Source of the DNA: Hyphomicrobiales bacterium
Lineage (GTDB): Bacteria; Pseudomonadota; Alphaproteobacteria; Rhizobiales; OSC116
DNA: 64,000 nt
Direction of reading: 5' to 3'
Assembly (NCBI GenBank): GCA_013214705.1
Contig: JABSRZ010000003.1
Location: forward strand, 1 to 64,000
In this document: positions 4,435 to 60,764 of the stretch, piece by piece
How positions within the stretch are numbered: the first letter of the stretch is position 1
Layout of the letters: each line of letters opens with the position of its first letter
Translations under genes and position numbers: made by a program
The notes under the pieces: generated by a model
Told to the model about the DNA's origin: nothing
The model's database searches: none
The model's input: the letters and a program-made list of their open reading frames with translations, nothing else

Positions 4435-4983
4435 ATGAATTTAAAAGATGGCGATAAAAATTCAGTGAAAGCTGATATGCCTGAATCCCACAGCGACATA
4501 CCGGTGTGGAACGCCGAAAACTGGTTTTATGAAGATTTCGAAATTGGCCATATAATCCGTACATTGCGGCGCACCATTTCAGAGGGCGAAGCCATGACAT
4601 TCAATACTTTGGTCGCCGATCTTCACCCCTACGTGGCCGATGAATATTTTGCAAAAAATCAAGGTATTTTCGGCCGCCGTCTGGTGGCAGGTGCTCAAGT
4701 TTTCTCCTATGGTTTGGGCCTTGCTGCTACCAATTGCGTCAATAGTTTCTCATATGGCTATGATAAATTGCGCTTCATTAAGCCGGTTTTTATTGGCGAC
4801 ACTATTTACACCATTAGAGAAAATCTTTCCAAAACCCCAAAATATGACGAAATGGGTTTGGTCAAAGTTAGTTATAAAGTGTTCAAACAAGAAGGCGAAT
4901 TGGCGCTGTATTGCGAACATTTGATGACCGTAAAATATATTCATCCCGAAAATTTTACCGCAGCAGGTGACCAAGATGATTGA
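4435..4983 (+). CDS. MaoC-like protein lacking the usual catalytic His
   Basis: The protein has 182 residues: a charged N-terminal extension (about 30 residues) and then a hotdog domain closely parallel to the divergent MaoC protein. The shared features include [32 protein letters not shown] and [11 protein letters not shown]. At the active-site position the sequence is ADLHPYVAD, so Val67 stands where the paralogue has the hydratase His (His42). The Asp (Asp62) is kept. It may be a subunit of a heteromeric hydratase, as seen in some MaoC pairs, or it may have another thioester role. It is the first gene of the long plus-strand run and overlaps the next gene by 8 bases. Confidence 0.75.
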
Positions 4984-7349: not shown

Positions 7350-7350
7350 A

Positions 7351-8676: not shown

Positions 8677-8692
8677 AAACCAGCCCCTCAAC

Positions 8693-8723
8693 GGTGGTCA
8701 ATTGTTCCCTACAATTGACCACC
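8693..8723 (+). other. Intercistronic stem-loop after the binding-protein gene
   Basis: GGTGGTCAATTGT (8693-8705) and ACAATTGACCACC (8711-8723) form a perfect 13-bp stem with a 5-base loop. Only a weak T-rich tail follows. It lies between the binding-protein gene and the first permease gene, so it probably acts as a partial terminator or as a 3' stabiliser for the upstream mRNA. Confidence 0.75.
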
Positions 8724-8742
8724 TCTATTTAAAGTGAGAAAT

Positions 8743-9669
8743 ATGACCACAATATCACTAAAATTTAGCTCTGCTATACAGTCTAAAAAAAGCATGCCTT
8801 ATCTGCTTATTTTACCGGCTATAATCGTTATATTAGGCGTCGTACTTGTGCCGCTGTTATTTTCGTTCTACACCAGTTTTACGCCGTTCAAACTAACCAA
8901 ACCCGATAGTTTATTTGTATTCATTGGCTTTAAAAATTACATTCGAATATTCTCGGATATGGCGTTTTGGGAGGCTTTTGGCCGCACAGTGTTATTTTTA
9001 GCCGTGGTCATAAATTTAGAATTTTTATTGGGTCTGGGTATCGCCCTGATGATCAATAAAATCACCCATGGCCAACGAGTTTTACGCACCATCATGATGT
9101 TCCCAATGATGTTTTCGCCTATTTTGGTGGGTTTTCAATTTAAGTTTATATTCAACGACAATATCGGCATATTAAATAACGCCCTGCAATCACTAGGCGT
9201 TACCGATCAAGCCATAGCTTGGCTGGTCGACAGATGGTTAGCCTTTGGCGCGATATCCTTTGCCGAAATTTGGATGAGCACCAGCATTTTTGCCATTTTA
9301 CTGCTGGCTGGGTTGTTTTCAATGCCACAAGAACCGCTTGAGGCCGCCCAAGTCGATGGCTGCAATTCTTGGCAAATTTTCAAACACATCACCCTGCCCT
9401 TCATCATGCCTTTCGCGTTTATCGCTATGACCATCAGGTCGTTAGATGTGGCCAGAGCTTATGACATTGTTGATGTGATGACCGGTGGTGGTCCTGCTGG
9501 ACGGACAGAATTATTATGGACAATGATTGCCCGGACAGGTTTTGACAATGCCAATATGGGGCGGGCAAATGCCATGGCTTATGTCTCTATTATATTGTCA
9601 ATTTTATTCACCTATTATTTCTTCAGAAAAATTATTGCAGCTCGCAAAGCTATGGGAGGTGACGCATAA
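8743..9669 (+). CDS. Sugar ABC transporter permease (MalF/UgpA type)
   Basis: The protein has 308 residues with about six transmembrane helices. The first is at about residues 20-45 (LLILPAIIVILGVVLVPLLF). The cytoplasmic EAA loop reads EAAQVDGCNSWQIFKHITLP, the contact point with the ATPase. ATG 8743 is preferred over a GTG nine bases upstream because GTGAG sits at a suitable distance. It overlaps the second permease by one base (TAATG), so the two are translationally coupled. The pair forms the membrane channel of the CUT1 importer. Confidence 0.9.
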   Translation: MTTISLKFSSAIQSKKSMPYLLILPAIIVILGVVLVPLLFSFYTSFTPFKLTKPDSLFVFIGFKNYIRIFSDMAFWEAFGRTVLFLAVVINLEFLLGLGIALMINKITHGQRVLRTIMMFPMMFSPILVGFQFKFIFNDNIGILNNALQSLGVTDQAIAWLVDRWLAFGAISFAEIWMSTSIFAILLLAGLFSMPQEPLEAAQVDGCNSWQIFKHITLPFIMPFAFIAMTIRSLDVARAYDIVDVMTGGGPAGRTELLWTMIARTGFDNANMGRANAMAYVSIILSILFTYYFFRKIIAARKAMGGDA

Positions 9670-10511
9670 TGAAAAAATTTAAAAAAATAGCCAATTGGTT
9701 AGCTACGTTTGCGGTGATGCTAATCATCTGCATCCCCGGTCTGTGGGTGGTATTATCCGCCTTTAGACCCAACCGCGAAATTTTGGCAAAACCGGCAGTT
9801 TGGATACCTGAATATTTATCATTCGATAATTTTTACGCCATTTTTGGTGGCGGCAAAGCGCTCATTGCCATCCCGGTACCGGCTTATTTTATCAACTCAA
9901 TCGTCATAGCCTCTACAAGCACTTTTGTGGCAATTGTAATTGGCATGTCAGGTGGTTACGCGTTTGCTAGGTTCAGGTTTAAGTTCAAAAACAGTATATT
10001 TTTGGGCCTTATGCTATCTCGCACCGTGCCGGGTATAGCCTTGAGCTTACCATTATTTATGATTTGGGGGCGGATTGGGCTGATTGATACAAAAATGGGT
10101 ATGATTATTGTTTATACCGCGCTTAATATTCCGTTCACCATCTGGCTAATTGATGGGTTTTTTAGACAAATCCCCAAGGAATTAAGTGAAGCTGGGCAAG
10201 TTGATGGCTGCACAAGATGGCAAGCTTTTTGGAAAATAGAATTTCCATTGGCCAAATCGGGCATTGCCTCGGCCGCTATATTCGCATTTTTAACCAGTTG
10301 GAATGAATATGCGTTGGCCAGTAATTTAACCCGTTCAACCGATAGTAAAACGCTACCTGTGGGGTTAATGGATTTCACCGCACAATTCACAATCGATTGG
10401 GCGGGTATGTCTGCCATGGCGGTTATCATTATTGTTCCCGCTTTAATTCTCACATTTATCGTGCAAAAGCACTTAATATCTGGCCTCACTTTTGGTGGTG
10501 TAAAAGGGTAA
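9669..10511 (+). CDS. Sugar ABC transporter permease (MalG/UgpE type)
   Basis: The protein has 280 residues with six predicted membrane helices and the EAA loop EAGQVDGCTRWQAFWKIEFP near residue 175. The C-terminus TFGGVKG is typical of MalG-type CUT1 permeases, including the frequent short ending after 'ISGLTFGGVKG'. It pairs with the upstream MalF-type subunit and is followed after only six bases by the ATPase gene. Confidence 0.9.
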   Translation: MKKFKKIANWLATFAVMLIICIPGLWVVLSAFRPNREILAKPAVWIPEYLSFDNFYAIFGGGKALIAIPVPAYFINSIVIASTSTFVAIVIGMSGGYAFARFRFKFKNSIFLGLMLSRTVPGIALSLPLFMIWGRIGLIDTKMGMIIVYTALNIPFTIWLIDGFFRQIPKELSEAGQVDGCTRWQAFWKIEFPLAKSGIASAAIFAFLTSWNEYALASNLTRSTDSKTLPVGLMDFTAQFTIDWAGMSAMAVIIIVPALILTFIVQKHLISGLTFGGVKG

Positions 10512-10517
10512 AAAACT

Positions 10518-11636
10518 ATGACAAAAGTTACGCTAAAAAATATCGTAAAAAAATATGGCAATTTAGAAGTTGTCCATAGCATCAATATAGACATCGCTCA
10601 TAACGAGTTTATTGTGCTGGTCGGGCCGTCTGGTTGCGGCAAATCAACAACCTTACGTATGGTTGCCGGGTTGGAAGATATCACATCTGGCGAAATAAAA
10701 ATTGGCGACAGAGTGGTCAATGATTTAGCCCCACGTGATCGAAATATTTCGATGATATTTCAAAATTATGCGTTATATCCGCATATGTCAGTGCGCGAGA
10801 ATTTGGGCTTTGGGCTTAAAATTGCCAAGCATACAGAAGCAGTTATCACCGAGCGAGTGGATGAAGCTGCCGAAATGCTGGGTCTTAACGAGCTGTTAGA
10901 AAGGCGGCCTGCCGAACTTTCTGGTGGCCAACGCCAACGGGTTGCCATGGGGCGAGCCATTGTGCGTAACCCAGATGTTTTCTTGTTTGATGAACCGCTG
11001 TCTAACCTCGATGCGAAGCTTCGGGTGCAAATGCGTACGGAGATTAAGAAATTACATAAACGGGTTAAAAACACCATTATTTATGTGACTCATGACCAAG
11101 TAGAAGCCATGACATTGGCCGACCGCATTGTGATTATGCGAGATGGCTTTATCGAACAAATTGGCACACCACTTGATGTATTTAACTTCCCAACCAATGT
11201 ATTTGTCGCGTCATTCATTGGCTCTCCACCGATGAATTTGATAGAAGCCACCGTGGATATTAAAGCCGGGCAGCGGGGCAATTTATTATTCCCCGAAGAT
11301 ATAGTCATACCTGTTCCGGAGCGGTTAAAAAATGCGGTCAAGCATGGCCAAAAAGTTGTGGTTGGCATAAGAGCAGATGATTTAACCCCTGTAAACCATG
11401 GTATAGATGATGCGTCCGAAAAAGCCGACTTAAATTTAACGGTGCATATATCCGAACCATTGGGCACAGAAACCATATTATTCTGCTCCATTGGCGAGCA
11501 GGAAATTCAGTGTAAAATGTTAAACCCCTACCCCGTAGCCGCTGACGAAAAGATGAAGTTTAAATTGGCAATCGATAAAATTCATCTGTTTGACCACGCT
11601 TCAGGCAACAATCTGTTAGGGTCTCTAAATGGCTAA
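10518..11636 (+). CDS. Sugar ABC transporter ATP-binding protein (UgpC/MsmK type)
   Basis: The protein has 372 residues. Walker A is GPSGCGKST (about 36-44), the signature is LSGGQRQRVAMGRA (about 134-147), Walker B is DVFLFDEPLSNLDAKLR, and the H-loop is YVTHDQVEAM. After the nucleotide-binding domain, an OB-type regulatory region (about 240-370) with VVGIRADDL is present, as in the MalK/UgpC group. It overlaps the following enolase-superfamily gene by 8 bases. This completes a full importer set embedded among catabolic genes. Confidence 0.92.
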   Translation: MTKVTLKNIVKKYGNLEVVHSINIDIAHNEFIVLVGPSGCGKSTTLRMVAGLEDITSGEIKIGDRVVNDLAPRDRNISMIFQNYALYPHMSVRENLGFGLKIAKHTEAVITERVDEAAEMLGLNELLERRPAELSGGQRQRVAMGRAIVRNPDVFLFDEPLSNLDAKLRVQMRTEIKKLHKRVKNTIIYVTHDQVEAMTLADRIVIMRDGFIEQIGTPLDVFNFPTNVFVASFIGSPPMNLIEATVDIKAGQRGNLLFPEDIVIPVPERLKNAVKHGQKVVVGIRADDLTPVNHGIDDASEKADLNLTVHISEPLGTETILFCSIGEQEIQCKMLNPYPVAADEKMKFKLAIDKIHLFDHASGNNLLGSLNG

Positions 11637-12747
11637 AATCGTCAACATAGAAGTGATGATGGTCGATTTAATGCCCAAAGTTAAACGCACCGACGCCATT
11701 CAATCATTTGTAAAGCAAGAAACGCCGATTGTGATAATCACCGATGCAGATGGTGTAAAAGGTTGTGGCTATAGTTACACCATCGGCACCGGTGGCAGCT
11801 CGGTCATTCATCTTATTGTCGACCATTTAGCGCCGTTACTGATTGGTAAAGATGCCCGATATATAGAAAAAATATGGCATGATATGCTGTTTCACACCCA
11901 CGCCACTGCGGTCGGCGCCATCACGTCTTTGGCCATGGCAGCCATCGACATTGCGCTGTGGGATTTGAAATCAATCAAGGCCAACAACCCGCTTTACATA
12001 GAGGCTGGTGGCGCAAAAGACGAAATACAACTTTATTCTACCGAAGGCGGCTGGTTGCATATAGAAACCGAGCAATTGGTCGATGACGCTCTAAATATGC
12101 AAGCCCAAGGCTTTAAAGGCGCTAAAATTAAAATCGGCAAACAATTTGTTGCCGATGACGAAAAAAGACTAAAAGCGGTGCGCGAAGCGGTGGGCGATCA
12201 TTTTAACATCATGGTCGATGCCAATCAATCTTTCAGCCTTTCCGAGGCCAAACGACGCGATAAAATGCTAACCGCATATGAGATTGGCTGGTTTGAAGAA
12301 CCACTTCCGGCCGATGATATTTTGGCGCATCAAAAGCTAACCGCCAGCTCCGGCGTGCCCATTGCGGTTGGCGAAAGCATTTATTCTTTAAGCCAATTTA
12401 AAGACTATTTGGCGCTAAATGCCTGCGATATTATTCAAGTGGATGTGGCTAGAATTGGTGGCATCACGCCATGGCTAAAAGTCGCTCATATGGCCGAAGC
12501 GTTTAATGTTAGCGTTTGCCCACATTTTCTAATGGAACTGCATGTTTCATTATGTTGCGCCATTAATAACGCCCCTTGGCTCGAATATATTCCGCAGTTA
12601 GATGCCATCACGCATAAGTCTATCGACATTCAAAATGGCATTGCCAGACCGTCTAAAAAACCCGGCTTGGGCATAGATTGGGATTTTGAAGCGATTGCAG
12701 AACTACGCATTGATGGCGCCTATTTCAACATTGGAAAACAATTATGA
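11629..12747 (+). CDS. Enolase-superfamily protein, mandelate racemase subgroup (acid-sugar dehydratase-like)
   Basis: The protein has 372 residues. The mandelate-racemase-subgroup pattern is complete: a KxK base motif (Lys166-Ile-Lys168), metal ligands Asp197 (VDANQ), Glu223 or 224 (WFEEPL) and Glu249 (GES), and the partner His299 (CPHF). Such enzymes abstract the proton alpha to a carboxylate. Members dehydrate acid sugars such as L-fuconate, galactarate or tartrate, or racemise hydroxy acids. In an L-fucose-type pathway this is a candidate L-fuconate dehydratase. The UxaA-like pair downstream is a competing candidate, so the exact substrate is open. It overlaps both neighbours. Confidence 0.82.
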   Translation: MAKIVNIEVMMVDLMPKVKRTDAIQSFVKQETPIVIITDADGVKGCGYSYTIGTGGSSVIHLIVDHLAPLLIGKDARYIEKIWHDMLFHTHATAVGAITSLAMAAIDIALWDLKSIKANNPLYIEAGGAKDEIQLYSTEGGWLHIETEQLVDDALNMQAQGFKGAKIKIGKQFVADDEKRLKAVREAVGDHFNIMVDANQSFSLSEAKRRDKMLTAYEIGWFEEPLPADDILAHQKLTASSGVPIAVGESIYSLSQFKDYLALNACDIIQVDVARIGGITPWLKVAHMAEAFNVSVCPHFLMELHVSLCCAINNAPWLEYIPQLDAITHKSIDIQNGIARPSKKPGLGIDWDFEAIAELRIDGAYFNIGKQL

Positions 12748-13073
12748 AAAAAATGGGGTTTATGATCGGTCTAAAACCAGATCAAATAACCGAATATAAG
12801 CGATTACATGCCGATGTTTGGCCTGAAATTTTACAAAGCTTAACCAATGCTAACATTAGTAATTACTCGATATTTCTGCGCGAACCCGAAAATCTATTAT
12901 TCAGTTATTGGGAATATGTCGGGCAGAATTTTGAAGCCGATATGCAAATTATGGCAAGCTTAGACATAACCAAAAAATGGTGGGAGCTGTGCATGCCCTG
13001 CCAGCAACAATTAGCAAGTTGCAAAAAAACAGAATGGTGGGCAGAAATGGAACAGGTTTTTTATCATGGATGA
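12744..13073 (+). CDS. L-fucose/L-rhamnose-type mutarotase (RhaM-like)
   Basis: The protein has 109 residues and is a compact dimeric alpha+beta barrel type. The family pattern is clear: EYKRLHADVWPEIL (His22 region), NYSIFLREPENLLFSYWEY, then WWELCMPCQQ and WWAEMEQVFYHG at the C-terminus. These enzymes interconvert the anomers of L-rhamnose or L-fucose so that the dehydrogenase and transporter see the right form. The start overlaps the upstream enolase stop (ATGA). It links the island to 6-deoxyhexose metabolism more directly than the enolase-fold genes do. Confidence 0.85.
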   Translation: MKKMGFMIGLKPDQITEYKRLHADVWPEILQSLTNANISNYSIFLREPENLLFSYWEYVGQNFEADMQIMASLDITKKWWELCMPCQQQLASCKKTEWWAEMEQVFYHG

Positions 13074-13719
13074 CCAAGACTATATCAAGCAATTGGAACA
13101 GTGTTATACTGGCGTGGTGCACGATGTGATGAGCGAAATGGGTTTGGAAAATTTCACCTTCCCACCTGAACTCAAACCGCTTTTACCCCAAAAAGTTATA
13201 TGTGGGCCGGTTTTCACCATTGAAGGTAAGCGCACAAACACCGCCTCTGGCCACGAAACTTTATTGGCGTGGACAGGTCTGTTGTCAAAAGCCAAATCCG
13301 GCCATATTTGGGTGTCCCAACCCCATGATTTGACCATCGCCCATATGGGGGAATTGTCAGCTGAAACCTTGCATAAAAAAGGTGTTTTGGGCTGTATTGT
13401 CGATGGCGGCATTAGAGATTCACATTTTATGGAAAAACTAGGCTTTCAGAACTGGCGGCGGTTTCATACCCCGCGCGATGTGGTGGGCACGTGGTTGCCG
13501 ACAGGTTTTGATGTCGACATTATAATAGGTGACGTGCTGATAAAACCCGGCGACATCATCCTAGCCGATTTAGATGGAATTGTGCGCATTCCAAAAGCCG
13601 ATCTGGCGGAAGTTACGCTTAAATCTCACGAAGCTATGCACAAAGAGAATAAAGTCCGCACAGCGATTATAAACGGAATGGATCCGCAGGATGCCTATCT
13701 CAAATACGGTAAATTTTAA
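13066..13719 (+). CDS. RraA-fold protein, 4-hydroxy-2-oxoacid aldolase-like
   Basis: The protein has 217 residues and the RraA/HMG-aldolase fold: GPVFTIEGKRTN, MGELSAETLHKKGVLGCIVDGG followed by IRDS, and GDIILADLDGIVRIP. Gly-Gly and the Arg-Asp of GGIRDS match the substrate and metal site of aldolases such as 4-hydroxy-4-methyl-2-oxoglutarate aldolase. Here it could cleave or decarboxylate a 2-keto acid from the sugar, an alternative to the FAH-type end of the route. It overlaps the mutarotase gene by 8 bases and the next enolase gene by one base. Confidence 0.82.
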   Translation: MDDQDYIKQLEQCYTGVVHDVMSEMGLENFTFPPELKPLLPQKVICGPVFTIEGKRTNTASGHETLLAWTGLLSKAKSGHIWVSQPHDLTIAHMGELSAETLHKKGVLGCIVDGGIRDSHFMEKLGFQNWRRFHTPRDVVGTWLPTGFDVDIIIGDVLIKPGDIILADLDGIVRIPKADLAEVTLKSHEAMHKENKVRTAIINGMDPQDAYLKYGKF

Positions 13720-14837
13720 TGATCATAACCGATTTCAAAATTAGATGTTGCAGTGTGCCGGGCAAAGGTTTTGTCCCACAAATGCTTAAGTCATCCGGCT
13801 CATCTGATGAAATTGAATTTTTGGTTTATACACTAACCACAGAATGCGGGTATTCCGCCTCTAGTTTTGGGTTTGCGGCAAAATCTGCACATGGGTCAGC
13901 TTTGTTGGCGATGAAATCTCTGCGGCCCTTATTCATCGGTCAAAACGCTCTAAACCGAGAGAAAATATGGCAAGATTTTCGCAAGGCAGATAGATGGTGG
14001 AGTCACCTGCCCATTTATAGCTATGGCCCAGCAGATATTTGCCTGTGGATATTGGGATCACTAAAAGCAAACCAGCCTTTATATCAATATATTGGCGGTT
14101 TTAAAAACCAAGTCCCCGTCTATTGCAGTTCGTTGGTTTTAGCAGATTCAGAGGCTTATGTTGCTGAAGCGTTGGCGGTAAAAGATGCTGGGTTCAAAGC
14201 CTATAAATTGCACCCGCCTAACCAAAATATAGAAGAAGATCTGGCCATACACCGCACCGTAAGAGACGCGGTCGGAAATGATTTCAACCTAATGTCAGAC
14301 CCAGTGGCGGCCTATTCATTAAATGAAATGGTTAGATTTGCCCAAGAACTAGAAAAACTAAACTATTTATGGCTAGAAGAACCGCTGCCGGATGAAGCCT
14401 TTTCAGCATTAAGAGAGTTGAAATCTAAAGTCAATATTCCAATTGTCGGCGCTGAAGTACTGGCCAAGCACCCCTATAGCGTGGCCGAGGTCATTGCCAC
14501 AAATGTGGTCGATAGCGTGCGTGCAGATGTATCTTGGTCTGGTGGCATTACCGGGGTTTTAAAAACCGCCAATTTGGCCGAAGCTTTTCACCGAAATTGC
14601 GAAATCCATACATCCATTTTTCACCCGCTCGAACTGGTTAATCTGCACATTTGCGCTTCGATATCCAACAATAGTTATTTGGAGCTTTTATGGCCAACTG
14701 ACATTTTCGATTTTGGTCTTAAGCAACCTATAGATATTAACAATGGCATAGCCACATTACCTCAGGCAGCCGGCCTTGGTATAGATTTTGATTGGGATTT
14801 TATCGACAATCATACATTTCAACTGATTGAGACCTAA
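13719..14837 (+). CDS. Second enolase-superfamily protein, divergent active site
   Basis: The protein has 372 residues with the capping and barrel domains of the mandelate racemase/muconate lactonising group. The first motif is Lys163-Leu-His165 (AYKLHPP) instead of KxK. The first metal ligand region is MSDPVAAYS (Asp194), followed by WLEEPL (Glu220 or 221) and GAEVL (Glu246). A His follows near residue 297 (EIHTS). The KxH variant suggests chemistry different from its paralogue at 11629. The two genes probably act on different acids or on different stereo-centres. Function cannot be named from sequence. Confidence 0.75.
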   Translation: MIITDFKIRCCSVPGKGFVPQMLKSSGSSDEIEFLVYTLTTECGYSASSFGFAAKSAHGSALLAMKSLRPLFIGQNALNREKIWQDFRKADRWWSHLPIYSYGPADICLWILGSLKANQPLYQYIGGFKNQVPVYCSSLVLADSEAYVAEALAVKDAGFKAYKLHPPNQNIEEDLAIHRTVRDAVGNDFNLMSDPVAAYSLNEMVRFAQELEKLNYLWLEEPLPDEAFSALRELKSKVNIPIVGAEVLAKHPYSVAEVIATNVVDSVRADVSWSGGITGVLKTANLAEAFHRNCEIHTSIFHPLELVNLHICASISNNSYLELLWPTDIFDFGLKQPIDINNGIATLPQAAGLGIDFDWDFIDNHTFQLIET

Positions 14838-14838
14838 T

Positions 14839-15162
14839 ATGCCAAATTTAACCGCCAGTAATACCGATAAGCGCCTGATGTTGTTAGATGATGATGACAA
14901 TATATTAATGGTGATTCAGCCACTTAAAAAAGACGAAGAGATTTGGCTCGGCCAAGTGAAAATAAAATTAGAACAAGATGTTAAAGTGGGGTTTAAACTG
15001 GCTCGGAAATCCATCGACAAAGGGGCAGAAATCCTAAAATATGGGTATGTAATTGGGGTGGCAGTAAACGCCATCAGGCAGGGTGAGATTATTCACTTTC
15101 ATAACATTGCCAGCACTTATATGCCTTCTGTTCTTAAAACCGAGCAATTGGAGGATAAGTGA
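14839..15162 (+). CDS. UxaA-family dehydratase, small N-terminal (SAF) subunit
   Basis: The protein has 107 residues. It matches the SAF-like N-terminal domain of altronate/galactarate dehydratases: AVNAIRQGEIIHFHNIAS near the C-terminus and a central DVKVGFKLARKSIDKGAEILKYG region. In UxaA and GarD this domain is fused to the catalytic part. Here it is a separate gene, as in SuyA of (R)-sulfolactate sulfo-lyase and several split dehydratases. ATG 14839 follows the previous stop by one base. The stop overlaps the start of the large subunit. Confidence 0.82.
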   Translation: MPNLTASNTDKRLMLLDDDDNILMVIQPLKKDEEIWLGQVKIKLEQDVKVGFKLARKSIDKGAEILKYGYVIGVAVNAIRQGEIIHFHNIASTYMPSVLKTEQLEDK

Positions 15163-16346
15163 TGATAAAAGCATATTTACGTAAAGATGGCCGCAAAGGC
15201 ATTCGAAACGTCACGGTCATTGTATATCTGGTGGAGTGCGCACATCATGTGGCGCAAAAAATTGCCGCAAAATTTGAGGATGATGAGGTGCAAGTCATTG
15301 GTTTTCCGGGTTGTTACCCAAATGGCTACGCCCAAAACATGCTGCAAACCCTCTGCACCCACCCAAATGTTGGCAGTGTTTTGCTAGTCTCGTTAGGTTG
15401 CGAGGGTATGAATAAACGCCAATTGCAAAATTTCGTTGCCGCCACTGACCGGCCGGTCAAAACCATCACCATTCAACAAGTTGGTGGCACTAGATCTGCT
15501 ATTGATGAAGGTGTGGCGTGGATTAAACAAGCCAAACAAGACATTAATCTCAAAATTGTCGATATGAAAGTTTCAGAACTCATCATTGGCACAATTTGTG
15601 GCGGCTCAGATGGCACGAGCGGCCTAACTGCCAACCCGGCCATCGGTAAAAGTTTCGATCGTTTGGTTGCCGAAGGAGCCATTTGTATATTTGAAGAAAC
15701 CGGCGAATTGATTGGCTGCGAAACTGACATTGCCAAACGCGCAAAAACCAAAGAATTGGGCGTGCTTTTGGCCGGCTCAATTGAAAAAGCCGCCAAATAT
15801 TACGAAACTTTGGGTTACCCAAGTTTTGCCCCGGGCAATGCAGATGGTGGCTTATCGACAATCGAAGAAAAATCGATGGGCGCTTATGCCAAAAGCGGTA
15901 AATCACAAATTAGCGGCCTTATTAAACCCGGCGATATACCGCAAAAAAGTGGTTTGTATTTGTTAGATGTTGTGCCAGATGGTGAGGTGCGGTATGGTTT
16001 TCCCAACATTGTGGACAATGCCGAAATTGTTGAACTCATCGCTTGCGGCTCGCATATCACATTATTTTCTACTGGTCGCGGCTCTGTCGTTGGCTCGGCA
16101 ATCTCGCCGGTGATAAAAATATGCGCCAACCCCGAAACTTATCACAATATGATGGATGATATGGACATTAATGCCGGCAAAATTCTCGATCTCACCCACA
16201 CATTAGATGAAGTTGGCGATGAGATATATGATCTGATTTTAGAAGTGGCGGCTGGTCAACAAACAAAATCAGAGCAATTAGGCCATGTTGAATTTATCCT
16301 GACCTATAAGAGTTTTGAACCTATTGGGCCTTCGTGCCAGCCCTGA
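15162..16346 (+). CDS. UxaA-family dehydratase, large catalytic subunit
   Basis: The protein has about 394 residues. UxaA C-terminal family features include GFPGCYPNGYAQ, LVSLGCEGMNKRQL, and IGTICGGSDGTSGLTANPAIG followed by IFEETGELIGCE. The Cys residues in these segments bind metal in family members. With the small subunit it should dehydrate an aldonate or a related hydroxy acid. Plausible substrates are L-fuconate, altronate, galactarate or sulfolactate; context favours an aldonate of a 6-deoxyhexose. GGAGG upstream supports the start at 15162. A 70-base gap separates it from the SDR gene. Confidence 0.82.
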   Translation: MIKAYLRKDGRKGIRNVTVIVYLVECAHHVAQKIAAKFEDDEVQVIGFPGCYPNGYAQNMLQTLCTHPNVGSVLLVSLGCEGMNKRQLQNFVAATDRPVKTITIQQVGGTRSAIDEGVAWIKQAKQDINLKIVDMKVSELIIGTICGGSDGTSGLTANPAIGKSFDRLVAEGAICIFEETGELIGCETDIAKRAKTKELGVLLAGSIEKAAKYYETLGYPSFAPGNADGGLSTIEEKSMGAYAKSGKSQISGLIKPGDIPQKSGLYLLDVVPDGEVRYGFPNIVDNAEIVELIACGSHITLFSTGRGSVVGSAISPVIKICANPETYHNMMDDMDINAGKILDLTHTLDEVGDEIYDLILEVAAGQQTKSEQLGHVEFILTYKSFEPIGPSCQP

Positions 16347-16416
16347 TGAATTTGATTAAAAAATTACCAAAAAACGGATTTTGGTTTAAAGTTACAACCA
16401 TAAAGGAAAAAAAATA

Positions 16417-17154
16417 ATGGGAGTTTTAGATGGCAAAACCTGCCTTTTAACCGCTGCGGGGCAAGGCATTGGCCGTGCCACGGCCGAAATGTTTTTGGCA
16501 GAAGGCGCAACCGTAATAGCCACCGACATAAACCTAGATTTATTACAGGGGCTGGCACAAAATACCCATTGCCAAATCGAGAAATTAGACGTAACTGACG
16601 CCCAGGCAGTGAGTGATTTGGCCAAAAAAATCGGCGCGGTGGATGTGATATTTAACTGTGCGGGATTTGTGCATAATGGCACAATTTTAGACTGCGATCA
16701 GGCGGCTTGGGACTTATCTTTTAACGTCAATGTCACCGGCGCCTACCAAATTATAAAATCATTTTTACCAGCAATGTTAAAAAATGGTGGCGGATCTATT
16801 GTAAACATGTCCTCTTTGGCCTCTAGCCTCAAAGGCGTGCCCAACCGGTTTGCCTATTGCGCCAGCAAAGCGGCGCTCATCGGCTTAACAAAATCCGTTG
16901 CTGCCGATTTTATCACTCAAGGCATAAGATGCAACGCCATCTGCCCGGGCACGGTTGAGTCTCCATCGCTAGATGAACGGCTTAAGGACACTGGCGATTA
17001 CGAAAAAGCTATGGCAGACTTTATCGCCCGTCAACCAATGGGTCGAATTGGCAAAGCCACAGAAATCGCTTCCTTAGTGCTTTATTTGGCGAGTGACTTA
17101 TCGGCATATACCAGCGGCCAAACTCACATTATTGATGGCGGTTGGTCAATTTAA
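16417..17154 (+). CDS. SDR, probable 2-keto-3-deoxy-L-fuconate dehydrogenase
   Basis: This classical short-chain dehydrogenase has 245 residues: cofactor motif TAAGQGIGRAT near residue 12, NCAG at about residue 80, and the catalytic Ser-Tyr-Lys with YCASKAA. The stretches FNCAGFVHNGTILDC, LASSLKGVPNRFAYC and GIRCNAICPGTVESPS are very like 2-keto-3-deoxy-L-fuconate 4-dehydrogenases. These produce 2,4-diketo-3-deoxy-L-fuconate with NAD. The FAH-family hydrolase directly downstream would use that product. GGAAAAAA before the ATG is a weak but acceptable ribosome site. Confidence 0.85.
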   Translation: MGVLDGKTCLLTAAGQGIGRATAEMFLAEGATVIATDINLDLLQGLAQNTHCQIEKLDVTDAQAVSDLAKKIGAVDVIFNCAGFVHNGTILDCDQAAWDLSFNVNVTGAYQIIKSFLPAMLKNGGGSIVNMSSLASSLKGVPNRFAYCASKAALIGLTKSVAADFITQGIRCNAICPGTVESPSLDERLKDTGDYEKAMADFIARQPMGRIGKATEIASLVLYLASDLSAYTSGQTHIIDGGWSI

Positions 17155-17177
17155 ATTATCAAAAATTAGGACATATT

Positions 17178-18023
17178 ATGAAACTATTACGTTACGGCCA
17201 ATTGGGTTTTGAAAAACCCGGTATTCTAGATGCCGATGGCAATATTCGCGACTTATCAAACATCATTGATGATGTTGCAGATGCCCAATTAGGCGATGAA
17301 GCACTCAACAAAATACGCCAACTCGACCTAAACAAATTGGACATTGTGACAGGCAACCCGCGCATTGGCGCTTGTGTTGGCAATGTTGGTAAATTCATTT
17401 GCATCGGTTTAAATTATGCCGATCATGCGGCAGAAGCGGGCATGCAATTGCCCGAAGAACCGATAATATTCAGCAAAGCCACATCGGCCATTTGTGGGCC
17501 TAATGATGATATTGAAATGCCGCGTAATTCAGTTAAAACCGACTGGGAAGTCGAATTAGGCGTGGTCATTGGCAAACATGCAAAATATGTAACCGAAGCC
17601 GATGCCGAACAATATATTGCCGGCTATTGTGTAATAAATGACCTGTCTGAGCGCGATTTTCAAATCGAACGATCTGGCCAATGGGTAAAAGGCAAATCAT
17701 GCGATACTTTTGGACCTATCGGGCCATATTTGGTCACCCGTGATGATATTGCCGACCCACAAAATTTAACCATGTATTTGGATGTGAACGGCCATCGTTA
17801 TCAAAACGGCTCTACCAAAACCATGCATTTTGGCGTCGCAACCATCATCGCTCATCTGTCACAATTTATGAGCTTGCAACCGGGCGACGTGATCTCAACA
17901 GGCACACCTCCAGGTGTTGGGTTGGGGCAAAAACCTCCAGTCTATCTACAAGTCGGTGATAAAATGGAACTCGGCATACAGGGTTTAGGGGTGCAAATCC
18001 AAACGGTCGTTAAGCCTATTTGA
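17178..18023 (+). CDS. FAH-family hydrolase, probable 2,4-diketo-3-deoxy-L-fuconate hydrolase
   Basis: The protein has 281 residues. The start MKLLRYGQLGFEKPGILD and the core FICIGLNYADHAAEAG, KTDWEVELGVVIGK and GKSCDTFGPIGPYLVT are characteristic of this FAH subgroup. The metal-binding Glu and Asp residues lie in the DWEVELGVVIG and NDLSERDFQ regions. The family hydrolyses the C-C bond of acylpyruvate-like diketo acids; here it would yield pyruvate and L-lactate. ATG 17178 is chosen over an upstream ATG at 17142, which overlaps the SDR, because TAGGAC lies before it and homologues begin with MKLLRYG. Confidence 0.87.
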   Translation: MKLLRYGQLGFEKPGILDADGNIRDLSNIIDDVADAQLGDEALNKIRQLDLNKLDIVTGNPRIGACVGNVGKFICIGLNYADHAAEAGMQLPEEPIIFSKATSAICGPNDDIEMPRNSVKTDWEVELGVVIGKHAKYVTEADAEQYIAGYCVINDLSERDFQIERSGQWVKGKSCDTFGPIGPYLVTRDDIADPQNLTMYLDVNGHRYQNGSTKTMHFGVATIIAHLSQFMSLQPGDVISTGTPPGVGLGQKPPVYLQVGDKMELGIQGLGVQIQTVVKPI

Positions 18024-18034
18024 AAGGCATAAAC

Positions 18035-18877
18035 ATGGAAATCATCGATACGCATATGCATTTGTTATATGGCCAAAATTTTGCTTATGACTGGTCGGCA
18101 GGCATTGACGTACTCAAAAGTCAAGATTTCAGCCTGCAACACTATAGTGAATTGGCAGCATTAGCCGGCGTCACCGTGGCAATATTTATGGAAACCGCGG
18201 TTAACGCCAAATTTTCACAGGCCGAGGCCATATTTGCTAAAACCAAAGTTGATGACAATGACACGATGGTTAAGGGCGTTATCGCCGGCTGTTTTCCAGA
18301 AAAAAAGGATGGTTTTGAGGCTTGGCTGGCTCAAACGGGCGATGCAGGTTATGTTGGTTATCGGCGTATCCTGCACACCGAGCCCGATGAATTATCACAA
18401 TCCAATATTTTTATCGACAACGTTAAAAAAATCGGTGCTCATCATAAATGTTTTGATATGTGTTTTGCGCAAAGGCAATTGCCGCTTGCCATAAAACTAG
18501 CAAAAAACTGCCCAAACACTCAATTTATATTGGATCATTGTGGCGTGCCTGACATTGCAGGTGGCGATTTTGGCCAATGGGCAACGGATATTTCAAATCT
18601 TGCCGAATTAGAAAATGTCAGCTGTAAAATTTCTGGCATTTTGGCCTATGTCCCCGGTTCAAAAAATGCTGCCCAAATAATAAAGCCTTATGTTGAACAT
18701 TGTATAGAAGCCTTTGGCTGGAACCGGGTGGTGTGGGGTGGCGACTGGCCTGTCGTCAACATGGCCTCATCCTTGGGTGAATGGGTTAAAATATCTAAGG
18801 CGCTGGTGAGCACAGAAAGCTTATCAAACCAAGAGAAGTTATTTTCTAAAAATACCATCAGAATCTATGGTTTGTAA
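18035..18877 (+). CDS. Amidohydrolase-2 family, probable L-fuconolactonase
   Basis: The protein has 280 residues. It has the metal-dependent TIM barrel with IDTHMHLL at the N-terminus, GYRRILHTEPDELS in the middle, ILDHCGVPDIAGG (about 170-182) and VVWGGDWPVVN near residue 235. These match L-fucono-1,5-lactone and L-rhamnono-lactone hydrolases of the COG3618 type. It would open the lactone made by the sugar dehydrogenase, so the last gene of the operon encodes the second step of the pathway. AAAGG precedes ATG 18035. A bidirectional-looking hairpin follows the stop. Confidence 0.85.
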   Translation: MEIIDTHMHLLYGQNFAYDWSAGIDVLKSQDFSLQHYSELAALAGVTVAIFMETAVNAKFSQAEAIFAKTKVDDNDTMVKGVIAGCFPEKKDGFEAWLAQTGDAGYVGYRRILHTEPDELSQSNIFIDNVKKIGAHHKCFDMCFAQRQLPLAIKLAKNCPNTQFILDHCGVPDIAGGDFGQWATDISNLAELENVSCKISGILAYVPGSKNAAQIIKPYVEHCIEAFGWNRVVWGGDWPVVNMASSLGEWVKISKALVSTESLSNQEKLFSKNTIRIYGL

Positions 18878-44201: not shown

Positions 44202-45497
44202 ATGACAGATAACAAAAATAAATCGGCCACATTATCTTTGGGTGGTAAAGATTATGACTTTCCTGTATATGAAGCGTCTGTTGGCCCAGATGTGATCGAC
44301 ATTAGTTCTTTATATGCCCAGACCAATAATTTTACTTATGATCCGGGTTTTACCTCTACCGCCTCTTGCGAAAGCAAAATTACCTATATTGATGGCGGCG
44401 AAGGCATTTTGCTTTATCGTGGCTACCCAATTGGTGAACTAGCTGATAATGCAAGCTTTTTGGAAGTTTGCTTTTTATTGTTAAATGGCGAATTGCCAAA
44501 TGAAGACCAAAAAGACAAATTTGAGCATAACATCACCTACCACACCATGTTGCACGATCAAATGGTGACCTTGTTTAAGGGCTTTCGCAGAGATGCCCAC
44601 CCGATGGCTATTATGGTTGGGGTTGTGGGTGCGTTATCGGCGTTTTATCACGATTCTACCGACGTGACTGACGCGCACCAAAGGCTGGTGGCTAGCCATC
44701 GGTTGATTGCCAAAATGCCAACCATTGCGGCCATGGCTTATAAATATTCGATCGGCCAACCATTTGTGCAGCCGCGCAATGATTTGGGTTATGCGTCTAA
44801 TTTTTTACATATGTGTTTCTCTGTACCTACAGAAGAATATATAGTGAACCCTGTGGCTGCCGAAGCCATGGACAAAATTTTCACCTTGCATGCCGATCAT
44901 GAACAAAATGCATCGACCTCGACTGTGCGTTTGGCCGGCTCGTCTGGTGCAAACCCGTTCGCTTGTATTGCGGCTGGTATCGCTTGTTTATGGGGCCCAG
45001 CACATGGTGGTGCTAACGAAGCTTGCCTAAAAATGCTAACTGAAATTGGCACTGTCGACAGAATTCCTGAATTTATTGCCCGGGCAAAAGACAAGGCTGA
45101 TCCGTTCCGTTTGATGGGCTTTGGCCACCGGGTTTATAAGAATTTTGACCCGCGCGCGACCATTATGCAAGCCACGACCCATGCCGTGTTGGATGACCTT
45201 AATATAGAAGACCCATTATTGGATGTGGCGATTGAGCTTGAACGCATTGCGCGTGAAGATGAATATTTTGTGTCTAAAAATCTATATCCAAATATCGATT
45301 TTTATTCTGGCATTACGCTACGTGCTCTTGGTTTCCCAACCAGCATGTTTACTGTATTATTTGCGCTGGCCCGTACAGTGGGTTGGATTGCCCAGTGGAA
45401 TGAAATGATTGAAGACCCAAAACAAAAAATTGGTCGCCCACGGCAAATTTATACCGGCGCTACGGAACGTCCATTTGTAAACATTAATGACCGTTAA
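44202..45497 (+). CDS. gltA: Citrate synthase
   Basis: The protein has 431 residues, the normal size of the hexameric bacterial type. Active-site regions are [30 protein letters not shown] and [15 protein letters not shown], with the catalytic His residues in the first two or three segments and an Asp later. It makes citrate from acetyl-CoA and oxaloacetate. ACAGGA precedes the ATG. A strong terminator follows at 45525-45551. Confidence 0.96.
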
Positions 45498-45524
45498 ACT
45501 GGTTGGACAAATTGTTAAAAAAAA

Positions 45525-45551
45525 GCCTGCAAATATTTTTGCAGGCTTTTT
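45525..45551. terminator. Bidirectional rho-independent terminator between gltA and fabZ
   Basis: GCCTGCAAA (45525-45533) and TTTGCAGGC (45538-45546) form a perfect stem with a 4-base loop followed by TTTTT. The A-run upstream gives a T-run on the other strand too, so it can end gltA and fabZ. Confidence 0.92.
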
Positions 45552-45601
45552 AAATTTGAGGCTTCTTTAATCTACAGGATTTTAAATGTGAGACATTTAG
45601 C

Positions 45602-46087
45602 TTAAACGTCTGGTGCCATCATCGCGCCGATCTCGGCTTGGCAAACCACAGCGCCGTCTACTTTGGCTTTGCATTCAAACTTCCAAATGTTGCCACGTTG
45701 CCTTGTTTGGGTGACATGAATGTGCAGCACGTCGCCCGGCCTAACCGGTTTGCGGAATTTACATTTGTCGATAGACATAAAATAGACCACATCTGGCGTG
45801 TCTTTGGTGCCACCATCTGCCACGCTTTGGGCATGGGCACATATAGCGCCTGAAACTTGGGCCATAGCCTCAACAATAAGCACACCGGGCATAACCGGAT
45901 GGTTGGGGAAATGACCTTGAAAAAAAGGTTCATTAATTGTGACATTTTTAATGCCAGTTGCAGATTTATCGCCATCTATATCTATAATTTTATCGACCAA
46001 TAAAAACGGATACCTATGTGGTAGCAGGCTCATAATTTGCATGATGTCGATGCTGTCTAGTGATTGGCTGTTATTGTCTTCGCTCAT
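45602..46087 (-). CDS. fabZ: 3-hydroxyacyl-ACP dehydratase FabZ
   Basis: The protein has 161 residues. The hotdog-fold motifs are [14 protein letters not shown] and [20 protein letters not shown] with catalytic His59 and Glu73. It dehydrates 3-hydroxyacyl-ACP in fatty acid synthesis. In most alphaproteobacteria it lies between lpxD and lpxA in the lipid A cluster; here those genes are absent on both sides. bamA upstream has its own terminator, and gltA converges downstream, so fabZ is probably transcribed alone. Confidence 0.95.
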
Positions 46088-46144
46088 GGTGCTTCCTATA
46101 TGGTTTGAAACTAAATGTTACAAAATTTATGGGAGATGCACAAT

Positions 46145-46170
46145 AAAAAAGGGCCAACAATGTTGGCCCT
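46145..46170 (-). terminator. Rho-independent terminator of bamA
   Basis: AGGGCCAAC and GTTGGCCCT (46150-46170) form a perfect 9-bp stem with a 3-base loop. On the minus strand it is followed by TTTTTT (46150-46145). It lies 29 bases after the bamA stop. Confidence 0.9.
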
Positions 46171-46198
46171 CGAATTTGATTTTTGAATTTGTTGCAGA

Positions 46199-48454
46199 TT
46201 AATATCTGAAATTTAGACCAAATTTAAATGGTTCTAACACATCAACACCATTGCTGTTCAGCACATAAGCATAATCGGCACGAAGTGGGCCAATTGGCGA
46301 ATCCCATATCATGCTTGCGCCGACAGAGCTTCTGATCTCGTTCACATCCGATAGGCTGCCGCCGACAGATGATTTGTATAATGTACCGGCATCGGCGAAT
46401 ACGCCAACATAAATACCCGCTTCTTTAGACAATGGGGTGGTTAGCTCTAATGTTGCGCCAGCAAATATTGTGCCGCCATTAGCGTCACCACCACCTGCGC
46501 GTGGGCCTAAGCCATCGGCTGCAAAGCCACGTACCAGATCGCCACCTTTAAAGAATGTATCTTGTTGGCGAAGCGTTGCGCCGCCCCAGCCATTGATAGC
46601 GCCAGCTGTAACATAGGCCGAAGCCACAAAATCTTTAACAATTTCGAAATGACCTTCGCTTGTGCCTACAGCTTTGATATATTTAACGTTGCCGCCAAGA
46701 CCAGCAAATTCAACATCCACTTCGGCCTTAAAGCCCTCGGTTGGCATGAAGTTTTTATTGCGCGTATCAAACACAGCTTTGACGCCAACAGCAGAGATAT
46801 AGTCAGTTGTGGCGTCTGTGCGATTATTGTCATAAGTGAAATTATAACGTGCGGCAACATTGATATTTTCATCTATCGGCAAGCCGACAACTAAGCCAAC
46901 GCCAGCTTTAAGATGGGTTTTTGTGTCTTTATCTACACCATGACTGCCGAATAAATTTGTTCCTACAGAATAATCGCCACCCATAAAGCGGGGTTCTGTG
47001 AAGCTAAAGCTTGCTGCTTTTTCGATGCCAGACCATTTTAGCGAGGCGCTAATTTGCTGGCCTGAGCCGAGCAGATTGGTTTCGGCATAAGTAAGCTCGC
47101 CAATGAGGCCAGCAAGGGTAGAATATGAAGCGGTTGCGCCAATGCTGCCGGTTGAATTTTCATTCACCTCGACAATTACGATGACTTTATCGTCTGCACT
47201 GCCGCGCTCGGTGATGATGTTAATGCCGGTAAAGTAACCGGTTTTAAACAACCGAGATTTGGCAGCATCTAACGATTCGGCGTTAAATACATCGCCTTCT
47301 GCAAGTTCAATTTCACGGCGGATAACTTGATCATGGGTGCGGGTATTGCCGACAATTTGAATGCGGTCAATATAAACCCGTTGGCCATCTTCGATCGCGT
47401 AAACCACATCTATTGTTTTGTCATATGGATTGCGAGAAATAATCGGGGTTACTTTTGCAAAGCTGAAGCCTTTGCGGGCAGCTTGCTTGCGCAGCGCAAT
47501 AAGGGTGTCGTTTAGTTGAACGGCATTATAAGTGTCGCCGGTGCGGCCTTTAACTAGTGATAATAATTCATCTGGCAGTAGGTTGGAGAAAGATGAATCG
47601 ACATCCACTTCGCCAAATTTATATTGTTCGCCTTCATCTAATGTGAAGGTGATGAAATATTTATTGCTGTCTTCATCATAATCGGCAACGGCGGAAATGA
47701 CGCTAAAATCGGCATAACCATTTTCTAAATAATGCCGGCGAAGTAATTCGCGGTCAAAATTAACTTTATCGGTGCTGTAGGTGTCGGCACCAGAGAACAT
47801 ATGCCAAATGGCGGCCTCTTTAGACGAAACCACACCTCTTAGCTCGCCATCTGAAAATACGCTATTGCCAACAAAGCTGACTTTTTGAACGATGGTTTCA
47901 GCGCCCTCAGTGATGCTAAAGATAAGGTCGGCTTTATGATCGCCAGTTTCGACAATTTTATAGCTAACTTCTACGTTAGAAAACCGCGAGCCGGTATATT
48001 TTTTCTTGATCTCTTTAACCGCGGCTTGCACTTGGCCTTTGGTGAAATAATCACCCGTACGCAGCTCATGAGACGAATTTAGCAGGCCAGAATCTAAACT
48101 TTGGTTGCCGATATATCTAACCGCAGTGATGGTCGGGTTTTCCTCGACGGTGATATAAACATTGCTGCCTTTATAGGTGATCGTAATGTCTTTAAACAGG
48201 CCAGTGGAATGAAGCGATGCGATGGATGCATTGATATTTTGTTGATTAATTTCTTGGCCGATTTTAAGATCTAGATTTTGAAAAACCGTTTCGGAGGAAA
48301 CGCTAATATTGCCGGATAAAATGAGGTTTTGCACATTGGCGGCAAAAGCGACTTGATGCAGTAATAAGGTGCCAAATGCCAAAGAAGTGGTTGCCAAAAT
48401 TGCCTTGCGCAAAGTTTTATGACTTTTTTTACTGATACTATTATTATTCATCAT
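46199..48454 (-). CDS. bamA: Outer membrane protein assembly factor BamA
   Basis: The protein has about 751 residues. A signal peptide (ending near VAFAAN) is followed by five POTRA domains (about 40-370) and a C-terminal beta-barrel ending in FGLNFRY with a terminal aromatic residue. The loop motif VRGF (GGDLVRGFAADGLGPR) of the Omp85 family is present. BamA inserts barrel proteins into the outer membrane. Start ATG 48454 is used, with GGGTGA upstream; ATG 48451 and GTG 48460 are alternatives. Its presence with BamE (60261) shows that an outer membrane is maintained. Confidence 0.95.
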   Translation of the reverse strand: MMNNNSISKKSHKTLRKAILATTSLAFGTLLLHQVAFAANVQNLILSGNISVSSETVFQNLDLKIGQEINQQNINASIASLHSTGLFKDITITYKGSNVYITVEENPTITAVRYIGNQSLDSGLLNSSHELRTGDYFTKGQVQAAVKEIKKKYTGSRFSNVEVSYKIVETGDHKADLIFSITEGAETIVQKVSFVGNSVFSDGELRGVVSSKEAAIWHMFSGADTYSTDKVNFDRELLRRHYLENGYADFSVISAVADYDEDSNKYFITFTLDEGEQYKFGEVDVDSSFSNLLPDELLSLVKGRTGDTYNAVQLNDTLIALRKQAARKGFSFAKVTPIISRNPYDKTIDVVYAIEDGQRVYIDRIQIVGNTRTHDQVIRREIELAEGDVFNAESLDAAKSRLFKTGYFTGINIITERGSADDKVIVIVEVNENSTGSIGATASYSTLAGLIGELTYAETNLLGSGQQISASLKWSGIEKAASFSFTEPRFMGGDYSVGTNLFGSHGVDKDTKTHLKAGVGLVVGLPIDENINVAARYNFTYDNNRTDATTDYISAVGVKAVFDTRNKNFMPTEGFKAEVDVEFAGLGGNVKYIKAVGTSEGHFEIVKDFVASAYVTAGAINGWGGATLRQQDTFFKGGDLVRGFAADGLGPRAGGGDANGGTIFAGATLELTTPLSKEAGIYVGVFADAGTLYKSSVGGSLSDVNEIRSSVGASMIWDSPIGPLRADYAYVLNSNGVDVLEPFKFGLNFRY

Positions 48455-48638
48455 TTTCACCCATCTGGATCGATTCTTAAACCCATTACTCTTAACACCT
48501 AGTTTTACTTGATTTTATAAAAAAAGGAAAGGTTTGAATTCTAACTGGGAGTATTTTCCCCAAAATGACTTAATAATTAACGAATTAGGGTTAATTTCGT
48601 TCAATTTTTAGCTAATTATGGTTAATTATTGGTTTCTT

Positions 48639-49775
48639 TTACAGAATCGATAAAATATCGTTGACAGTTACAAAAATGAAAAAACCAAGCAATAAAGTGA
48701 TGCCTGCGCGCATTGCATATTCCATATATATGGTGGGCAGCGGCCGGCGGATGATGGCTTCTATCAGGTAAAAAGTCAGGTGGCCACCATCTAACATCGG
48801 GATTGGAAACAAGTTAAACAGCCCAATGCCGACACTAAGCAATGCCGCCAGACGCACTAGCGGCAGCAGCCCTTCGGATGCCAATTGGCCAGACGCTTGG
48901 GCGATTTTAACCGGCCCGCCAAGCTGCTTAATGTCGCCTTGGCCAATGAATAAATCTTTAATGGTTACCAAAGTTTGGGTGATGATAAACCACACTTCGC
49001 CGCTGGCAGAGACCACGGCATTGGGCAATGAGAGTTGTTTAAATTCTAGCTCAGCTTGCGAACTATTGTGAATGATGCCAATGCGGCCGATGGTTTGCTC
49101 ATTACCGAATTTGTCTATAAAAACAAAAGGCTTGGGTGTAATAGATAAGTTGACAATCTGGTTGTCTCTGAGCACATCTATGCTCATTGTTTTGCCGGGG
49201 CTGAACATGATGTATTTTTGTAAATCGGTAAAAGTCTCGATGTTGTTGCCGTTAATTTGGGCAATGATGTCGCCGGTTTCTATGCCCGCAATTTGAGCGG
49301 CGCCACCATCTGTAATGTCATCCACCCTAGGGCTGATAATGGGTTGGCCAATGGCCATCATAAACACGGTGAAAATGCCGATGGCGAAGATAAAATTGGC
49401 CACTGGGCCAGCCACCACAATGGCGGCTTTTTGCCATAGGGGTTTGGTGTGAAAGCATAGTTTTTTTTCGGCATCCGTGAGGTTGTTTACCGAGGCATCG
49501 GCAAAGCTGGACTCGTTGGCATCGCCCCAGAATTTAACATATCCGCCAAGCGGGATGAGGCTTAGCTTCCACCTGGTTTGTTTTTTGTCGGTAAAGCCCC
49601 AAATTTCTTTGCCAAAGCCGATGGAGAATACATCCACCCGCACATTACACCACCTTGCGACCAAAAAGTGACCCATTTCGTGGACAAAAACAATGGCCAT
49701 AAGCACCGAAATAAAGCCAAATGCATAGTGAAAAATGCTGGTGCCAAAGCCTGTTAGAATGTTCATTATTTCCAT
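48639..49775 (-). CDS. rseP: Site-2 protease RseP
   Basis: The 378-residue membrane zinc protease has the HEMGH active site near residue 28 (VFVHEMGHFLVARW). A PDZ domain follows (about 125-215) and the third catalytic region NLFPIPMLDGGHLTFY lies near residue 320. It cleaves transmembrane segments such as anti-sigma factors in the envelope stress response. The place between dxr and bamA is conserved. Confidence 0.94.
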   Translation of the reverse strand: MEIMNILTGFGTSIFHYAFGFISVLMAIVFVHEMGHFLVARWCNVRVDVFSIGFGKEIWGFTDKKQTRWKLSLIPLGGYVKFWGDANESSFADASVNNLTDAEKKLCFHTKPLWQKAAIVVAGPVANFIFAIGIFTVFMMAIGQPIISPRVDDITDGGAAQIAGIETGDIIAQINGNNIETFTDLQKYIMFSPGKTMSIDVLRDNQIVNLSITPKPFVFIDKFGNEQTIGRIGIIHNSSQAELEFKQLSLPNAVVSASGEVWFIITQTLVTIKDLFIGQGDIKQLGGPVKIAQASGQLASEGLLPLVRLAALLSVGIGLFNLFPIPMLDGGHLTFYLIEAIIRRPLPTIYMEYAMRAGITLLLGFFIFVTVNDILSIL

Positions 49776-51724: not shown

Positions 51725-51763
51725 GTAACGTCCTTGTTATGGAGTTAAACTGGGTTTATAGAG

Positions 51764-60260: not shown

Positions 60261-60764
60261 ATGAATATGATAAATGTACAAAAAACCAAAATATCCAAAT
60301 TGTTTGCCATCGCGTTGCTCGGCTCTAGCTTCATGCTTACATCTTGCGGCGGCTCTATAGACCAGCACGGCTATGTCGCCCAAATCGGCGCGATTGAAGA
60401 TATTATTGTTGGCATGCCGATTGGTGAAGTTAACTCTATTTTGGGCAGCCCATCGGTGGTTACAACCGCCAACGGGCTTTCGCACTATTATATCAGCTCT
60501 AAAAAAGATCGCTATAATTTATTAGGCCCCAAAGAAAAAGAACGCCAAGTTTTGGCGGTGCATTTTGGCAGCAATAAACGGGTCAAAAAAATAGCCAATT
60601 ATGGCCTAAAAGATGGGGTGGTATTTGATTTTGTGTCGCAAACTACACCAACCTTCAAAAAAGATTTGAACCTTCTGCAAGAATTATTTGGTGGCGTTGG
60701 GGCTGGCGGCGCTGGCGACGCGGCAAATACTTTATTTTCATCTGGTGGTTTTAGCGATAATTAG
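60261..60764 (+). CDS. bamE: Outer membrane assembly lipoprotein BamE (SmpA/OmlA)
   Basis: The protein has 167 residues. A lipoprotein signal with FMLTSCGG places the acylated Cys at about residue 29. The SmpA/OmlA fold follows: VGMPIGEVNSILGSPSVVT, SHYYISSKKDRY and VLAVHFGSNKRVKKIANYGL. The C-terminus is Gly/Ala rich. It supports BamA in barrel insertion. It is divergent from the CBP3-like gene, a standard alphaproteobacterial arrangement. Confidence 0.9.
   Translation: MNMINVQKTKISKLFAIALLGSSFMLTSCGGSIDQHGYVAQIGAIEDIIVGMPIGEVNSILGSPSVVTTANGLSHYYISSKKDRYNLLGPKEKERQVLAVHFGSNKRVKKIANYGLKDGVVFDFVSQTTPTFKKDLNLLQELFGGVGAGGAGDAANTLFSSGGFSDN

Follow-up and report, generated by a model that had tools for sequence, protein, structure and literature searches.

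Two types of envelope are familiar in the Alphaproteobacteria, one with lipopolysaccharide (LPS) and one with sphingolipid, and both have the Lpt transport system. Where other alphaproteobacteria have given up LPS, serine palmitoyltransferase (SPT) is the entry enzyme for the sphingolipids that replace it. Gram-negative bacteria without LPS are known, and the accessible parts of three papers name sphingomonads, Sorangium, Borrelia, Wolbachia and, by gene content, Nitrosomonas europaea (PMC11324152, PMC3087551, PMC13317210). The published exceptions that we met are mostly sphingolipid replacers, host-bound cells or mutants. In the open-licence literature, judged mostly by titles, no free-living alphaproteobacterium that is without LPS, SPT and Lpt at once came to our attention. 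Here we analyse a stretch of 64,000 nucleotides, called the window throughout, in which bamA, fabZ and gltA lie side by side without the lipid A (lpx) genes. We consider it likely that the free-living alphaproteobacteria of an entire genus carry an outer membrane that has neither LPS nor sphingolipid and no Lpt, which would add a third type of envelope to the two familiar ones.

The window belongs to a genome of 3.516 Mb that is 98.87% complete, and its family is represented by six genomes of a single genus, the window's own included. Four of them are at least 91% complete and the other two 71 and 75%; NORP83, a MAG that is the closest named relative and evidently our genome G003, is among these two. 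The NORP83 assembly stems from fluids below the seafloor at North Pond, in a study of population genetics there, and the words "lipopolysaccharide" and "outer membrane" have no occurrences in the accessible main text of that paper (PMC9426424). The strongly reduced genome that marks LPS loss in hosts is not seen at 3.516 Mb. Additionally, the window carries a catabolic cluster of the sugar-acid type (4435-18877) that encodes an ABC sugar transporter, two enolase-superfamily enzymes, an altronate/galactarate dehydratase-like protein, an RraA-like aldolase, a CoA-transferase and MaoC. Its genome size and catabolic genes, together with the origin of NORP83 at North Pond, make it probable that the organism is free-living.

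Gene order around fabZ

Within the window, fabZ ends a series of genes in the order pyrH-frr-cdsA-dxr-rseP-bamA-fabZ (Table 1), in which pyrH and frr were assigned visually and through their counterparts in L043, a MAG locus discussed below. The usual order places the lpx genes around fabZ, as the preliminary description had it, and indeed an lpxA match is present at 68 of the 80 fabZ loci from named genomes. Here bamA, fabZ and gltA are neighbors, and the claim that no lpx remnants lie between them held up: tblastn searches of the two gaps with four lpx proteins gave a lowest E value of 0.18, which is chance level. An Rfam scan of the window returned nothing at the gathering threshold. The clean terminators that had been proposed between the neighbors were also recovered, one as a stem-loop beyond gltA and the other as the bamA terminator. 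The stem-loop, which is absent from the output of our pattern scan for terminators, is likely a bidirectional terminator between the convergent gltA and fabZ genes. We attribute the retention of fabZ to the fact that fatty acid synthesis requires it.

Table 1. Features of the window at and near the lpx-less junction
Feature	Coordinates	Strand	Evidence
gltA, citrate synthase, flank of the lpx junction	44202-45497	+	Pfam
gltA/fabZ junction, normal place of lpxA-lpxI-lpxB	45498-45601	.	104 bp, one stem-loop
stem-loop, 14-bp, flanking A/T runs	45520-45551	.	-20.0 kcal/mol, z -5.1
fabZ, 3-hydroxyacyl-ACP dehydratase, kept	45602-46087	-	PF07977
fabZ/bamA junction, normal place of lpxD	46088-46198	.	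111 bp
bamA terminator	46149-46171	-	scan and stem-loop analysis
bamA, 753 aa, intact, Omp85 barrel and POTRA repeats	46199-48460	-	Pfam
rseP, M50 site-2 protease, in conserved frr-cdsA-dxr-rseP-bamA order	48639-49775	-	Pfam
bamE, outer membrane assembly lipoprotein	60261-60764	+	PF04355, 41.6 bits

The identical arrangement is found in NORP83 (locus L001), with gaps of 81 bp between gltA and fabZ and 96 bp between fabZ and bamA. The fabZ genes of the window and NORP83 are 88-90% identical, the value of 90% being that for amino acids over 155 aligned codons. The depositor's label OCS116 on NORP83 is doubtful and may be wrong, because L043, a MAG with the same label, has the full bamA-lpxD-fabZ-lpxA-lpxI-lpxB-gltA order and a fabZ that is only 48% identical. 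Among the 80 loci, eight labelled as alphaproteobacterial have bamA and fabZ without a match to lpxD, lpxA, lpxI or lpxB, and gltA is also present in four of these (L001, L013, L037 and L048). A gltA tree of 26 rows, five of them lpx-less, prefers three changes at fabZ and is still compatible with a single one.

A further gene is missing nearby. The normal place of uppS is between frr and cdsA, and the window has only a 39-bp gap there (51725-51763), as NORP83 has one of 30 bp. Among 16 selected sequences, 13 had a cdsA match, and 11 of these 13 also had a uppS match at the locus, the window and NORP83 being the two that did not. A search of the contig that carries the window, C23, gave no uppS match.

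Lipid A, Lpt and sphingolipid genes in the family and its order

Genome-wide searches for LpxC, the LpxA C-terminal domain, LpxB and the Kdo transferase WaaA each gave no match in all six members of the family. As controls we used eight genomes of the order that have LpxC, and in these LpxB was found in 8/8 and WaaA in 7/8. The possibility raised in the preliminary description, that the cell may lack lipid A and LPS, is thus supported, whereas its alternative, that the genes had moved as a block, is rejected by the same searches. They also exclude a complete lipid A set elsewhere in the genome, which had been named as the finding that would speak against LPS loss. We conclude from gene content that the lineage probably lacks LPS. 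The one control without WaaA, G010 (family f6), has LpxC, LpxB and LptD, so WaaA is not a strictly universal marker; this genome may perhaps encode a Kdo-free LPS.

The loss extends to genes of LPS transport. A search for lptD had been proposed beforehand, without the loss of Lpt itself being foreseen, and both LptD and LptF/G proved to be missing from all six family genomes, each being present in 8/8 LpxC-positive controls. In an LPS-positive relative (G045), pepA, two LptF/G genes, lptD, surA, pdxA and ksgA follow one another in that order. On C23, pepA (254518, + strand) stands 182 bp from surA (254335-253364, - strand), followed by pdxA and ksgA; Pfam supports PepA, SurA, PdxA and KsgA here and LptD and SurA in G045. 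In the window's own genome, the one in which the pepA-surA junction was examined, the lptF-lptG-lptD block has thus been removed as cleanly as lpxD and lpxA-lpxI-lpxB. Both the lpx and the lpt junctions lie inside C23, a single contig of 954 kb. A regular-expression search of this contig for rpoN, as a guide to the lptB neighborhood, gave no match. Taken together, the lpx-less bamA-fabZ-gltA arrangement probably marks one of the places, at least two in number, where genes were cleanly deleted in an alphaproteobacterial lineage that has abandoned LPS and is left without sphingolipid or Lpt.

We then placed these losses within the order, where 123 of 150 genomes gave an LpxC match; because the other 27 lack it, loss of LPS alone is not rare. 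Families f1, f5, f15, f23, f37, f38, f39 and f48 have no LpxC-positive sampled member (f38 and f48 each rest on one listed genome), which suggests that LPS may be absent in at least eight families of one alphaproteobacterial order. LptD is far more constant, being detected in 388 of 397 genomes that are at least 90% complete, 387 of them above the cut-off. The nine misses are four genomes of the window's family plus G029, G070, G135, G220 and G385. G029 is the sole member of its family among the 397, and the families of the other four include LptD-bearing members. Among families sampled by at least two genomes, only the window's family is without LptD throughout.

These surveys bear on whether the genes are present after all, having moved, diverged too far or fallen into assembly gaps. 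As drafts in 45 to 750 contigs, the family genomes leave some room for such an explanation, but we give it next to no weight. Six gene families from what are normally at least four places are missing together in six genomes; the fabZ junction is alike in NORP83; both junctions of the window's genome are internal to one contig; and LptD is detected almost throughout the order.

Another explanation is a swap of LPS for glycosphingolipids, as in Sphingomonas, and sphingolipid synthesis had indeed been suggested for this organism. Twenty of the 27 genomes without LpxC were listed, and the 16 of these outside the family were examined further, the other seven being left out. A gene scoring at least 398 bits against our SPT profile is present in 14 of the 16, G092 among them, so the swap would have ample precedent in the order. 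SPT was not found in any of the six family genomes, however. SPT genes score 398 to 790 bits against the profile, which was built from sequences of three of the SPT-scoring genomes, and the best scores are 246 bits in the family and 233 in the window's genome. The nearest enzymes in this genome, three members of the AONS family, go by other names: a glycine C-acetyltransferase (KBL, 629 bits), a 5-aminolevulinate synthase (ALAS, 633 bits) and a BioF-like protein (335.6 bits, under the 426-bit cut-off, from a partial translation). Moreover, the family has lost LptD and LptF/G, which are kept in nearly all sphingolipid genomes examined; among the 16, LptD is present in 15 and LptF/G in 14. We reject sphingolipid replacement of LPS, which we regard as very improbable.

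Several individual genomes depart from the general pattern, and among the 16 these are G070, G066 and G092. G070 (family f21, 1.4 Mb, 99% complete) is without LpxC, WaaA, LpxB, LptD, LptF/G and SPT, and is apparently a second, independent case, in a small genome. G066 (86% complete) keeps LptD and LptF/G in the absence of LpxC, LpxB, WaaA and SPT, and G155 has SPT and LptF/G and lacks LptD. G092 (84% complete), in which the lack of LpxC probably reflects an assembly gap, has LpxB and WaaA and is without LptF/G. Additionally, G156, a Defluviicoccus MAG and the genome of locus L025, has LptD, LptF/G and MlaA; judging by the absence of LpxB, WaaA and SPT, it would have an Lpt system without known cargo.

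In the 22 SPT-scoring genomes, SPT and LptF/G genes are often close together: an LptF/G gene lies 30 to 4,662 bp from SPT in 18 of them, G039, G059, G072, G153, G155, G157, G158 and G159 included. Of the remaining four, three have the LptF/G gene on a different contig and G092 gave no LptF/G match; with scores of just 398 to 415 bits, the SPT of G092 and that of G024 may not be genuine. G039 has genes for both lipids and two LptF/G pairs, one beside LptD and the other beside SPT. This suggests that an Lpt inner-membrane pair dedicated to sphingolipid may extend well beyond Caulobacter. The link itself is already known, matching the LptF2/LptG2 genes beside the Caulobacter sphingolipid genes in the part of that report accessible to us (PMC11324152).

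Evidence for a remaining outer membrane

The preliminary description took the retention of bamA and bamE as a sign that the outer membrane is kept, and the evidence agrees. Between the window and NORP83, bamA shows a dN of 0.21 and a dS of 1.33, giving a dN/dS of about 0.16 that indicates purifying selection; the ratio is rough because this dS is near saturation. C23 also encodes two autotransporter beta-domain proteins (863 and 867 aa), a protein that combines transglycosylase and transpeptidase domains, and a cell wall amidase. It could be argued that the outer membrane is itself being lost and that BamA is a leftover, since the LPS and Lpt genes are gone and a crude filter found barrel-type C-termini in only 10 of 855 ORFs on C23, two of them confirmed as barrels. 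Such a course is highly unlikely, given a full-length BamA under purifying selection and intact BamE, SurA and two autotransporters. The kept BAM and SurA genes, the purifying selection on BamA and the presence of autotransporter barrel genes together make it almost certain that the cell still has an outer membrane.

MlaA keeps LPS asymmetry and would be expected to go if the outer leaflet were phospholipid. It was found in none of the six family genomes, but it is also missing from all eight LPS-positive controls of the order, so its absence is not informative about a phospholipid outer leaflet. Of the 40 genomes examined for it, MlaA is present in 14, all of them without LpxB and WaaA; set against its absence from the LPS-positive controls, this is the reverse of what its role in LPS asymmetry would lead one to expect.

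We propose that, once the cell made neither LPS nor sphingolipid, the Lpt bridge was left without cargo and was lost. Lack of cargo does not lead to Lpt loss as a strict rule, G156, G066 and G155 being exceptions. The simplest reading of the gene content is that the outer leaflet would consist of glycerophospholipids or other small lipids that arrive without Lpt, and the barrier may be formed by proteins and surface polysaccharide. The main rival to this reading is a glycolipid of a new type, neither lipid A nor an SPT-made sphingolipid, with an exporter of its own in place of Lpt. In its favor, the known routes that we tested are all gone, yet the genes for a barrel-bearing outer membrane stay. 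A bacterial sugar transferase (PF02397), from a class of enzymes that prime surface polysaccharides, is also encoded on the same contig. Among the synthesis and export systems that we named and searched for, however, none emerged as a candidate, and we consider a new glycolipid possible but rather unlikely.

Comparison with known systems

If the genus does lack LPS, sphingolipid and Lpt, then an outer membrane with barrel proteins can do without both LPS and its transport machine, and the genus would lend itself to a search for other ways in which lipids reach the outer leaflet. The sphingomonad type is alike in having no lpx genes at fabZ and in keeping BamA, and Sphingopyxis G159 (locus L064) also lacks LpxB and WaaA. 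G159 has SPT, LptD and LptF/G, however, whereas the genus described here has none of these (its SPT scores 783 bits and is one of the three in the profile). Caulobacter crescentus makes both LPS and sphingolipid and has a second pair, LptF2/LptG2, according to the accessible part of one report (PMC11324152); by known genes, the present genus makes neither lipid. In one laboratory strain of C. crescentus lipid A can be dispensed with (Zik et al. 2022, as described in PMC10964400). The SPT-LptF/G link of Caulobacter does recur in the order surveyed here.

Wolbachia and its relatives, Borrelia and Nitrosomonas europaea are of the Gram-negative type and lack all or most lipid A genes, and in the parts of the two papers available to us Nitrosomonas is free-living, whereas Wolbachia and Borrelia, unlike this genus, are host-bound (PMC3087551, PMC13317210). 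The same sources describe in Borrelia an LptD homologue that exports lipoproteins (PMC3087551, PMC13317210), and the genus here has no LptD. In Nitrosomonas eutropha the sphingolipid cluster of Caulobacter has orthologues (PMC11324152), whereas SPT is missing here. Compared with those cases, the present one combines a 3.5 Mb genome and a sugar-acid catabolism cluster with the loss of both LptD and SPT. Finally, lipid A-deficient Acinetobacter similarly indicates that cells can grow with an outer membrane that contains no lipid A (PMC10964400). Those strains are mutants of a species that makes lipid A (PMC10964400), whereas the loss described here is fixed across the six sampled genomes of a genus.
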